From positions 1-64,000 of the forward strand of contig NZ_JADNBB010000024.1 of assembly GCF_015550595.1 (NCBI RefSeq): DNA of 64,000 nucleotides. The letters run 5' to 3'. This DNA is from Parabacteroides goldsteinii (GTDB lineage: Bacteria > Bacteroidota > Bacteroidia > Bacteroidales > Tannerellaceae). The notes under the pieces are model-generated. The model ran no database searches, was not told where the DNA came from, and was given only the letters and a program-made list of their open reading frames with translations. Made by a program: the position numbers and the translations under genes. This document shows positions 15,807 to 56,331 of this stretch, piece by piece. The first letter of the stretch is position 1. Each line of letters starts with the position of its first letter.

Positions 15807-17786
15807 ATGGGACATTCTTGTAGTTGTAATTGTCAGGGGCATTCCGAGAAGCAACACCACTTTCCGCCTTACATACTTCCAGCCGTTTCTTTCGTCATGC
15901 TACTGGCCGGACTTTATATGCAACAGACCGATGTAGAATTATTCAATAATGAGACTGCACGGTTCGCTTGGTATTTGTTGGCTTATCTGCCTGTCGGGCT
16001 TCCGGTGATCAGGGAAGCGATAGAAAGCATACGGAAGAAAGATATTTTCAGTGAATTCACACTTATGTGTATTGCCACACTCGGTGCTTTCTATATCGGT
16101 GAATATCCGGAAGGGGTTGCCGTGATGTTGTTCTATTCCATCGGTGAGATCTTCCAGGAGAATGCGGTAGCTAAAGCTCGCAAGAATATCAGTGCCCTGC
16201 TCGATGTAAGGCCTGAAACGGCAACGGTCATCCGCAATAACAAACAGATTACCCTCGCTCCTACAGATGTTCTTCCCGGAGAAATCATTGAAGTGAAAGC
16301 GGGAGAAAGAGTTCCCCTTGACGGGAAGTTATTAAGTGAGGTTGCCGCATTCAATACAGCCGCCCTTACCGGAGAAAGTATGCCACGTACTATTCACCGG
16401 GATGAAGAGGTTCTGGCTGGTATGATCGTAACCGACAAAGTGATTCGGATAGAAGTGACAAAACCGTATAACCAAAGTGCGTTGGCACGTATTCTCGAAC
16501 TGGTACAGAATGCATCGGAACGAAAAGCTCCGGCGGAACTGTTCATCCGAAAATTTGCACGTATTTATACGCCGATCGTAACCGGCCTGGCTTTCCTGAT
16601 CGTCCTACTTCCTTATTTATATTCACAGATACAACCGGATCTCCTTTTCATTTTCAACGACTGGTTGTACCGGGCACTTGTATTTTTGGTTATTTCCTGC
16701 CCTTGTGCGCTGGTTATCAGTATCCCTTTAGGCTACTTCGGAGGGATCGGGGCTGCTTCGCGGCAAGGAATCTTATTTAAAGGGGGCAACTATCTGGATG
16801 CCATCACCAAAATCAATACAGTCGTATTCGATAAGACCGGGACACTGACCAAAGGGATATTCGAGGTACAATCCTTATCTGCCGCCGATCATATTTCCGA
16901 AAAGGAACTGCTTCGCATCATTGCCTCTGTCGAAAGCCGGAGCAACCATCCTATTGCCAAGGCAATCGTGGCATACGCTCGGGAACAGCAGGTGGAAATC
17001 GACACAACCATCGATACGACCGAACTGGCAGGCTACGGATTAAAAGCAGTAGTCGATGGGAAAGAGGTATTGGTTGGCAACTCCCGCCTGTTGGACTCGG
17101 AAGGAATATTGTTTCACCATATTGAAACAACTGTTTCACCTAGGAGAAACAACTGTTTCAACGGCATGAAACAAAATTCAGATACCGTGGTTGTCTGTGC
17201 CATCGACCGTCAGTATGCCGGTCATATCCTGCTTGCCGATACGCCCAAAGAGGATGCGGTAGAAGCTATTAAACAATTAAAAGAATTAAATATTAATAAC
17301 CTGGAGATATTATCCGGAGATAAACAGATAATTGTTTCTAAATTAGCTAGCTGTTTAGGGATACCGCATGCATACGGCGATCTTCTGCCGGAAGGCAAAG
17401 TCGCTCGCCTGGAAGAACTGAAACGGAATCCGGAGAACCGGATAGCCTTTGTAGGCGACGGCATCAACGACGCTCCGGTGCTCGCCCTGAGCGACATAGG
17501 CATTGCGATGGGTGGATTGGGAAGCGATGCGGCAATTGAGACGGCAGACGTAGTGATACAAACCGACCAACCCGGCAAAGTGGCTACGGCGATCCGAATC
17601 GGTAAGTTTACACGTAAGATCGTATGGCAGAACATTGCGTTGGCATTCGGCGTCAAACTGATTGTATTGATCCTGGGAGCCGGAGGCATAGCAACCATGT
17701 GGGAGGCTGTTTTTGCAGATGTCGGTGTCGCTCTATTGGCCATCCTTAATGCCGTAAGAATTTTAAAGACTAATAAACAGGATTGA
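15807..17786 (+). CDS. P1B-type metal-exporting ATPase (Zn/Cd/Pb class)
   Basis: 659-aa heavy-metal pump. The N-terminus lacks a ferredoxin-like HMA domain and instead has a Cys/His-rich tail (Cys5, Cys7, Cys9, several His), a probable metal-loading arm. Core motifs: TGES 188-191, the intramembrane CPC 298-300, DKTGT with phosphorylated Asp342, SNHP around 379-382, and GDGINDAP 550-557. The C-terminal membrane pair has Lys (GVKLIVLI) and DVG (FADVGVALL), the P1B-2 signature for divalent Zn, Cd or Pb. Oddity: residues about 435-456, in the nucleotide-binding domain, are encoded by a 22-bp-period palindromic repeat (17111-17172) and look like an in-frame insertion. It is followed 1 bp later by a Fur-family gene. 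Confidence 0.93.
   Translation: MGHSCSCNCQGHSEKQHHFPPYILPAVSFVMLLAGLYMQQTDVELFNNETARFAWYLLAYLPVGLPVIREAIESIRKKDIFSEFTLMCIATLGAFYIGEYPEGVAVMLFYSIGEIFQENAVAKARKNISALLDVRPETATVIRNNKQITLAPTDVLPGEIIEVKAGERVPLDGKLLSEVAAFNTAALTGESMPRTIHRDEEVLAGMIVTDKVIRIEVTKPYNQSALARILELVQNASERKAPAELFIRKFARIYTPIVTGLAFLIVLLPYLYSQIQPDLLFIFNDWLYRALVFLVISCPCALVISIPLGYFGGIGAASRQGILFKGGNYLDAITKINTVVFDKTGTLTKGIFEVQSLSAADHISEKELLRIIASVESRSNHPIAKAIVAYAREQQVEIDTTIDTTELAGYGLKAVVDGKEVLVGNSRLLDSEGILFHHIETTVSPRRNNCFNGMKQNSDTVVVCAIDRQYAGHILLADTPKEDAVEAIKQLKELNINNLEILSGDKQIIVSKLASCLGIPHAYGDLLPEGKVARLEELKRNPENRIAFVGDGINDAPVLALSDIGIAMGGLGSDAAIETADVVIQTDQPGKVATAIRIGKFTRKIVWQNIALAFGVKLIVLILGAGGIATMWEAVFADVGVALLAILNAVRILKTNKQD
17111..17172. 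repeat. Tandem palindrome array, 22-bp period, inside the ATPase gene
   Basis: Three 18-bp units of the form GTTTCA-N6-(T/A)GAAAC start at 17111, 17133 and 17155, separated each time by AACT. Central hexamers are CCATAT, CCTAGG and ACGGCA. The reading frame runs through the array. A related array with the same 22-bp period and one identical unit (GTTTCACCTAGGAGAAAC) lies at 46308-46369. Confidence 0.85.
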
Positions 17787-17787
17787 T

Positions 17788-18198
17788 ATGGATGCTTATT
17801 TAGACATATTGAACAAGAGAGAGATCAAACCGACGGCTATCCGCCTGCTTGTATTAAAAGCAATGATGGAGTTTGAACGGGCCTTTAGCCTGCTCGATCT
17901 GGAGAATTATCTGGACACGGTAGATAAATCGACCGTGTCCAGGACTATCAATCTTTTTCTCGATCACCACCTGATCCATTGCATCGACGACGGATCGGGT
18001 TCGTTGAAATACTCGGTATGTGGCGAAGATTGTAATTGTTCGATAGAAGAGCTGCATGCGCACTTTTATTGCCAGAAATGTCACAGGACCTTCTGTCTGC
18101 GGAATATTCCCGTCCCGACCGTACAGCTACCACGTAATTTCACCCTGGAAAGTATCAACTACGTGTTAAAAGGTTGCTGCGAAGATTGCTCAAAATAG
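17788..18198 (+). CDS. Fur-family metalloregulator
   Basis: 136-aa Fur/Zur/PerR-type repressor. The N-terminal winged helix (about 1-80) contains [16 protein letters not shown] as recognition region. The C-terminal domain has [15 protein letters not shown], providing His and the structural-zinc CxxC, and a terminal CCEDC. It starts 1 bp after the ATPase stop, so the pump and its likely regulator are one operon. The sensed metal is probably the one exported, by context. The palindrome at 15742-15756 is its most likely binding site. Confidence 0.88.
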
Positions 18199-46307: not shown

Positions 46308-46380
46308 GTTTCACCTAGGAGAAACTTTCGTTTCATGCTTGAGAAACTTTTGTTCCTTCTAGGGGAAACTTTTATTTCGC
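46308..46380. repeat. Tandem palindrome array, 22-bp period, intergenic copy
   Basis: Three 18-bp units, GTTTCACCTAGGAGAAAC, GTTTCATGCTTGAGAAAC and GTTCCTTCTAGGGGAAAC, start at 46308, 46330 and 46352, separated by TTTC and TTTT, and a truncated fourth (ATTTCGCC) begins at 46374. The first unit is identical to the middle unit of the array inside the metal ATPase gene. It lies between the convergent HTH and PiT genes. Confidence 0.85.
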
Positions 46381-55611: not shown

Positions 55612-56331
55612 ATGAACTGGCGTGATTTACTCTATTTTTCCAAAGGAGAACGCAGAGCCTTAACCCTCCTACTCTGTTTGATCTCTATTTCCTGGATCAT
55701 TTTATTATTGACAGACAATAAACCGGAACAAATCTCTAAAGAAAATAACCGGGTCATTGAATCTGTAAAAACATCTCAAACAATCGCTTCAAACAAGCCG
55801 GAGAAGGTCAAAACACCTGCATCCGAAAGAAAAAACAATTCCTTCCGGGAGAAAAAGAAATTTCACCCGAAAGAAACTCCCAACATACCCGGAAGAAAGA
55901 CTTTCCCAAAAACAGAGAAATATCCAATCGGAACAGTGGTTGAGTTAAATACTGCCGATACAACCACCTTAAAGAAAGTACCCGGAATAGGAAGCACCTT
56001 TGCCCGTCGTATCATCAAATACAGGGAACTATTGGGTGGATTTTACTCCGTCTCCCAACTTAGTGAAGTGTATGGAATCGATGAAGAACGATTTAATACG
56101 ATGAAATCGTGGTTTTCGGTAGATGTGAAAATTATTTGTAAATTATTTGTGAACCAGGCACCGGTCAAAAACCTTTACAGGCACCCTTATATAAACAAGC
56201 AACAGGCACGAATTATCGAACAGTTACTGAAACAGAAAAGGAAACTCTCCGGCTGGGAGAACCTTCAACTGCTGGAGGAATTCACCGAAGCTGATAAAGA
56301 AAGACTGACTCCATATCTGTCATTTGAATAA
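55612..56331 (+). CDS. ComEA-like helix-hairpin-helix membrane protein
   Basis: 239-aa protein. One membrane helix (about 17-34) near the N-terminus is followed by a basic, low-complexity linker (about 50-105) and then two helix-hairpin-helix units. The first is VVELNTADTTTLKKVPGIGSTFARRIIKYRELLGGFYSVSQL, closely like the DNA-binding HhH of ComEA; the second is more diverged (LYRHPYINKQQARIIEQLLKQKRKLSGWENLQ). Possibly envelope-anchored DNA binding or DNA uptake, but no competence genes are near. It overlaps the promoter of the AAA ATPase gene downstream. Confidence 0.82.
   Translation: MNWRDLLYFSKGERRALTLLLCLISISWIILLLTDNKPEQISKENNRVIESVKTSQTIASNKPEKVKTPASERKNNSFREKKKFHPKETPNIPGRKTFPKTEKYPIGTVVELNTADTTTLKKVPGIGSTFARRIIKYRELLGGFYSVSQLSEVYGIDEERFNTMKSWFSVDVKIICKLFVNQAPVKNLYRHPYINKQQARIIEQLLKQKRKLSGWENLQLLEEFTEADKERLTPYLSFE

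Follow-up and report, generated by a model that had tools for sequence, protein, structure and literature searches.

Why does a gene for a metal-efflux pump in Parabacteroides goldsteinii carry three palindromic units, in frame and at a strict 22-bp spacing? The window, by which we mean the whole stretch of 64,000 nucleotides that was analysed, contains the pump gene as an ORF with an intact reading frame and with the SCPC, DKTGT, HP, and GDGxND motifs present (Table 1). In a profile search the product matches TIGR01525 (7.3e-164) and TIGR01512 (2.5e-146), both above the cut-off, and its top match among solved structures is ZntA (4umv). The catalytic motifs fall in invariant alignment columns and are intact.

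The array consists of three copies of GTTTC-N8-GAAAC that start exactly 22 bases apart, with AACT as both linkers, and it codes in frame for residues ~435-456 of the ATPase. These residues follow the invariant H381-P382 and G424-N425 and precede the strand at 460-466, which places the array within the nucleotide-binding domain. In an AlphaFold2 model (mean pLDDT 76.8), a helix and a strand of that domain are joined by a low-confidence loop, residues 437-458, which is the domain's sole run of at least three residues with pLDDT below 50. The three units, their spacing and coordinates, and their location in the nucleotide-binding domain had been described in a first-pass annotation of this DNA, and motif scan, ORF, and alignment bear the description out.

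Table 1. Coordinates of the pump gene, the palindromic units, and related features in the window
Feature	Coordinates	Strand	Basis
P1B-type (Zn/Cd/Pb family) metal-efflux ATPase, 659 aa	15807..17786	+	ORF, TIGR01525, TIGR01512, motifs
Palindromic unit 1, GTTTCACCATATTGAAAC, core ACCATATT	17111..17128		motif scan
Palindromic unit 2, GTTTCACCTAGGAGAAAC, core ACCTAGGA; apical loop of predicted hairpin	17133..17150		motif scan, fold
Palindromic unit 3, GTTTCAACGGCATGAAAC, core AACGGCAT; partner of unit 1 in predicted hairpin	17155..17172		motif scan, fold
Fur-like regulator gene, directly 3' of the ATPase gene	17788..18198	+	PF01475, 23.1 bits, equal to cut-off
Second family array, three units, between convergent genes	46308..46369		motif scan, flanks
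Decayed three-unit array in ComEA/helix-hairpin-helix-like gene (55612-56331), in the linker before the HhH part	55816..55877		8/30 stem mismatches

All 30 stem positions of the ATPase array match the motif, and the best three-unit register found in 100 shuffles of the gene had at least 11 mismatches in 30. Across the window, units with at most one mismatch number 16, against 2.74 expected and a maximum of 8 in 100 shuffles. An arrangement of three exact units in register goes far beyond what chance would produce.

We aligned 30 ATPase loci, some of them duplicates of one genome, with the window protein. The extra residues are present in five species only, namely in the window genome, P. gordonii, G022, P. 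faecis, and the metagenome-assembled genome BH.2_3. The remaining ATPases, including those of Bacteroides fragilis (66% identity), Butyricimonas, and other members of the genus as well as the paralogue L082 in the window genome, are gapped by 14-16 residues at the site. The P. gordonii gene has an intact three-unit array without a stem mismatch (0/30) and with cores different from those of the window. The arrays of G022, P. faecis, and BH.2_3 are decayed, with 6, 7, and 8 stem mismatches of 30, respectively, and three insert-less ATPases that were scanned have 14-15. The explanation that residues 435-456 are native codons with an accidentally palindromic look might draw on a unit in murE that overlaps native residues (see below). 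Against it stand the absence of mismatches here and in P. gordonii, compared with the counts in insert-less genes and in shuffles, and the spread of the motif through the genome; we consider this explanation refuted and leave it practically no probability.

The first-pass annotation had taken the array for a mobile palindromic repeat inserted into a gene. This view has held up, in that the family is dispersed and relatives lack ~14 residues at the site, and the alignment supports the insertion of a palindromic array into the ATPase gene. The net gain in the gene is ~42 bp, not the 62 or 66 of the array, and therefore either there was no simple clean insertion or a deletion followed it.

The same annotation had suggested a phase-variable switch, in which slippage of one 22-bp unit would turn the pump off. 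It is true that a unit of 22 bp is not divisible by 3, while three units with their linkers (66) are, and that unit number varies between species at two other loci, L037 (5 versus 2) and L040 (7 versus 5). However, the segment from GN.RLL to T(V/I)V(V/A)CA is 42 residues long in all five insert-bearing species (one genome per species), and P. gordonii also has exactly three units. Slippage between identical units is unlikely because the three ATPase cores differ from each other. These comparisons do not support the switch, and we regard it as very improbable. Given one segment length in the ATPase and differing unit numbers elsewhere, the coding copy looks held in frame.

Arrays were also found in two other genes. 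In MurE (L039, recognized by its Pfam Mur ligase domains) the array occupies L039:2459-2520 in the N-terminal domain and has 3 of 30 stem mismatches. It is recognizable (at most 9/30 mismatches) in three of 11 genomes, the window genome with 3, G022 with 4, and G012 with 8. The MurE segment has the same length in G000 (the window genome), G019, G022, G004, G012, and G013, and is shorter by 7 residues in G016, G069, and G064, by 5 in G018, and by 2 in G060. One unit overlaps the conserved native residues FIRVKDS, and therefore only part of this array is extra sequence. The gene that we take, from its sequence, to be ComEA/helix-hairpin-helix-like contains the decayed array listed in Table 1. 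Its relatives have 6 (G012), 9 (G019 and G022), and 10 (G004) stem mismatches of 30, and counts of 11 to 14 were obtained for the remaining six; the minimum in 300 shuffles was 11. Insertion is less clear here because the linker length varies. A frameshift through unit loss in the G004 gene was considered and rejected, as the break looks like small indels, one of them near an A run (490-contig assembly). The peptides encoded by the arrays in the ATPase, MurE, and ComEA-like genes differ.

The units belong to a family dispersed through the genome. Exact GTTTCA-N6-WGAAAC occurs 34 times per strand, compared with 2 and 1 occurrences of the reversed control, and a looser pattern gave 90 and 89 matches compared with 17 and 10. 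The window's genome has at least 25 array loci. Under a longest-ORF rule, three of these 25 (L037, L039, and L045) fall inside an ORF and the other 22 between genes. The L037 array is in the first part of a 546-aa ORF, and we do not claim it as intragenic, since the true start may be downstream of it. Two flavours can be told apart: in GTTTCA-type arrays three units are the usual number and the linkers are oriented (AACT/AAGT, for example), and GTTTCC-type arrays run to as many as seven units. At L040:2388-2537 there are seven GTTTCC-type units, three with identical cores; the corresponding array has five units in G022, and G019 has a GTTTCA-type array. When the second array of the window is compared with the same site in G022, 13 of 24 core bases and 1 of 30 stem bases are changed, and a GTTCC stem variant is shared.

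A double unit (at most one mismatch) is present in 24 of 98 genomes: 22 of 38 in the genus, two of 20 in other genera of the family, and none of 40 in other families of the order. The reversed controls gave none in all 98 genomes. A longer pattern was matched in four of 395 sampled genomes of the phylum: the window's own, a second one in the genus, and one each from the same order and the same class. Loci L198-L201, in G327 (another family of the same order) and G378 (the same class), have the same 22-bp architecture, mostly with TTTT linkers. The core vocabulary at L202-L241 seems to differ between species, an example being ATGCCGGT/ATCCCGAT in G012; however, likeness of cores within a genome topped its row only in G022, G012, and G016 (with a tie in G004), and not in G000, G019, or G060.

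Carriage of the family by viruses was considered and set aside, the exact three-unit pattern having no match in viral_contigs. In the 20 of 25 loci searched, no Rfam 15 family lay over an array at its gathering score, and a search of the window region gave two matches, both far below their gathering scores. At L055:2773-2953, a Bacteroidales small SRP RNA adjoins a tRNA gene, ~200 bases from an array. Among the matches listed in the open-licence literature there was no account of this hairpin family in Parabacteroides, and passages of PMC4596501, PMC10969869, PMC12306157, PMC3733652, and PMC5771137 do not describe it.

To follow arrays between species, we searched 14 flank pieces in G022 and G019. 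For the L051 piece neither genome had a match among those listed, and 13 loci were compared, with one flank missing at L044 in G022 and at L058 in both relatives. A run of at least two units occurs at five of the 13 loci in G022 (L047, L041, L040, L037, and L046) and at three in G019 (L044, L050, and L040, the last in the other flavour). Neither relative has an array at five loci, L038, L049, L061, L042, and L060; at two of these, L038 and L061, the relatives have a largely different intergenic region. Besides the two loci with differing unit number, L046, L044, and L050 have three units in both genomes compared and L047 has five in both. At L041, G000 and G022 each have four units, of which one in G022 carries a stem mismatch, and G019 has no two-unit run. 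Sites lacking an array displayed ragged junctions, with no target duplication or clean empty site, and no transposase was found for the family.

Nine orthologous pairs with intact arrays allowed the parts of the unit to be compared. Changes amount to 3/310 stem, 56/248 core, and 15/88 linker positions, and to 327/3400 in the flanks (200 bases). A pair could be counted only if the array was intact in both genomes and unit number was equal, so that the conservation of the skeleton is partly due to this selection. The pooled sums omit two decayed ATPase pairs, L045/L064 (stem 6/30, core 15/24) and L045/L087 (stem 7/30, core 15/24). L043, L052, L057, and L059 were found by the stem pattern in both genomes and L045/L085 by its genes; the four pairs found by their flanks (L044, L050, L046, and L047) have changes in 1/140 stem, 21/112 core, and 120/1600 flank positions. 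Cores changed faster than flanks at P<0.05 in six of the nine pairs, L043 (0.043) and L059 (0.049) being marginal, and did not in L052, L050, and L047. If read inverted (3/24), L043 would join the pairs without fast cores.

Core changes tend to fall together in the same unit (P=0.0002 for clustering over 30 units in nine pairs, with L047 out and L057 versus G022 added). At L057, comparison with G019 (L057/L134) shows the arms TTCCGGGT/ATCCGGAA replaced by TTCGGCAT/ATGCCGAA around an unchanged middle unit, and comparison with G022 shows arms that differ by one base and a middle unit that differs at 7 of 8. L043 versus G019 (L043/L124) reads best inverted, with 0 linker differences instead of 4 and 3 core differences instead of 5, an apparent inversion of the whole element. 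Passages of PMC8604942 give arm homogenization and spacer inversion as marks of template switching, and template switching has been proposed as a source of compensatory changes (PMC8794818, in the part that treats them). Selection for compensatory changes in a hairpin could also produce the arm change at L057. The idea that distant arrays copy core words from one another was considered as well and has no support, as words common to different arrays are no more frequent than under a Markov null (P=0.43 and 0.12). Our larger finding is a genus-wide hairpin family whose skeleton is fixed and whose cores often change by whole units.

Each of the seven elements folded as RNA is predicted to form a single long hairpin, with unit 1 pairing to unit 3 and the apical loop holding the core of unit 2 (z -4.3 to -11.0). 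For the ATPase array the predicted hairpin has -22.3 kcal/mol and z -5.4, and the cores of its units 1 and 3 are complementary at only 3 of 8 positions in the window. Complementarity of these two cores at 7 or 8 of 8 positions was found in eight of 23 three-unit elements (null mean 1.84); none of 5000 permutations reached eight such elements, the largest number being seven. Mean complementarity of units 1 and 3 is 4.65 compared with 3.93 (P=0.0125); for units 1 and 2 it falls below the null. These 23 elements come from G000 and G019, four orthologous pairs being counted twice. In 106 arrays from ten genomes, with the seven-unit array L040 left out, units i and i+2 are complementary at 7 or more positions in 17 of 184 cases (null 6.2). 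Taking six genomes singly, the mean is raised in G000, G019, and G004 and not in G060, G012, or G016, and the pool also shows an elevated direct likeness between units i and i+2 (3.71 versus 3.26). Self-palindromic cores were considered and rejected, since the inner core pairs with itself no more than in a column-shuffle null (1.10 versus 1.19 pairs, P=0.84).

Most codirectional intergenic arrays (18 of 23) are nearer a stop than a start, with median distances of 21 and 90 bases (P=0.011). This set, which differs from the 23 elements used for pairing, is likewise from G000 and G019, with longest-ORF gene calls and four orthologous pairs counted twice. Nearness to stops is REP-like. It also agrees with a reading in which an RNA hairpin is selected at gene ends as an mRNA 3'-end stabilizer or terminator, the arms co-varying by compensation and the coding copy being a stray; the strong fold (z down to -11) and the complementary arms fit such a role as well. 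The same reading leaves the fast change of the unpaired loop core unexplained, five of the 13 compared loci have no array in either relative, and a simple scan found no consensus terminator near the second array of the window. We view it as possible and rather doubtful.

A tandem operator would be another way to account for an exact 22-bp period, with conserved half-sites and a variable centre, at many loci: dyad sites two helical turns apart would bind a dimeric regulator or nucleoid protein, and the cores would be unspecific spacers. However, the cores of units 1 and 3 are complementary in this clade and cores often change faster than flanks, neither of which spacers would require. Because codirectional arrays are nearer to stops than to starts and copies occur inside coding sequences, an operator seems improbable.

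Among the closest known systems are the REPs and REPINs. According to passages of PMC3733652 they are short palindromes present many times in a genome, singly or in clusters, most of them between genes and downstream of a gene, and sometimes inside genes. Like the GTAG and CGTC families of these, the Parabacteroides arrays are short, palindromic, multi-copy, and mostly extragenic. They differ in that units lack a terminal GTAG or CGTC, the arrays listed having GTTTC/GAAAC or something close to it at the unit ends, in their exact 22-bp tandem period, and in cores that vary from copy to copy within the common skeleton. A RAYT (Y1_Tnp, PF01797) was found in four of ten genomes, G019, G022, G060, and G018, the last of which had no array in the survey by double units. 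The same search found none in the array-rich genomes G000, G004, G016, and G012, and a RAYT-driven REP was rejected, as the window genome has no RAYT match. This absence counts against the GTAG kind only, because CGTC REPs seem to have no dedicated transposase (PMC3733652, same passages).

The first-pass annotation had compared the array in concept to the palindromic elements of Rickettsia, and the comparison is apt, as a dispersed palindromic repeat is found in frame in coding sequence. According to passages of PMC10969869, a Rickettsia palindromic element is a repeat of ~150 bp that lies in frame in unrelated protein genes and encodes a conserved peptide. The Parabacteroides family resembles it in the in-frame insertion into unrelated genes (the ATPase, MurE in part, and less clearly the ComEA-like gene). 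Unlike the element as portrayed there, ours is 62 bp long, belongs to another phylum, is mostly intergenic, and has no common peptide that we could see.

Porphyromonas gingivalis belongs to the same order as Parabacteroides. Its BrickBuilt MITEs, like our arrays, combine a tandem repeat of short period with a MITE-like element; their repeat is 23 nt long, with the consensus AGAYCATARTATCCTCTCRTRTG, and their TIRs resemble those of IS5-family ISPg elements (passages of PMC4596501). The Parabacteroides period is 22 and its unit is palindromic, whereas the BrickBuilt repeat, as given in those passages, lacks the GTTTC/GAAAC palindrome. Our arrays also differ from a MITE in having no TIRs common to copies; the inverted repeats formed by units 1 and 3 occur in a third of the elements and differ between elements, and the GTTTC/GAAAC ends that are common to copies are only 5 bp long. 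Arm homogenization, spacer inversion, and multi-nucleotide changes recall quasipalindrome template switching, which was reported for yeast coding DNA and for RNA genes (PMC8604942 and PMC8794818, in part); here the setting is a bacterial repeat family and the mechanism would be deduced from the pattern of change.

We consider it likely that the array is a hairpin repeat of REP/MITE-like kind, which template switching during replication or compensatory selection has reshaped and which the protein tolerates as a loop. A typical element of the clade has three 22-bp units in the order X-Y-X', 62 bp in all, predicted to form one long hairpin in RNA, and the same hairpin could form in single-stranded DNA. 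At orthologous sites an element may be there in one species and missing in another, and its unit number can change; most elements lie just behind stop codons and probably act or are tolerated as 3'-end hairpins. The common position and length in five species suggest a single ancestral entry, in which one copy would have come to lie in frame in the P1B ATPase gene of the ancestor of the five sampled species, in a loop of the nucleotide-binding domain. Afterwards the skeleton would have been kept, with cores changing, in two species, and the array would have decayed in the other three. Core change may stem mainly from replication template switching between units, through arm homogenization and spacer inversion, with a possible contribution of selection for the hairpin, and the ATPase insert was probably tolerated rather than regulatory. 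More tentatively, the family might be a natural template-switch engine, in which a fixed skeleton makes the units interchangeable as hairpin partners, so that replication rewrites entire 8-base cores, re-matches arms, and inverts spacers, and which yields a fast-changing, frame-locked loop when it lies in a gene.

Multi-residue differences in such loops need not be the product of adaptive evolution. The ATPase copy is an instance of how a mostly intergenic repeat enters coding sequence and persists there as a length-locked loop. The combination of a constant skeleton, unit-wise core change, and complementary arms would make the family a convenient natural setting in which to measure how template switching proceeds in wild bacteria.
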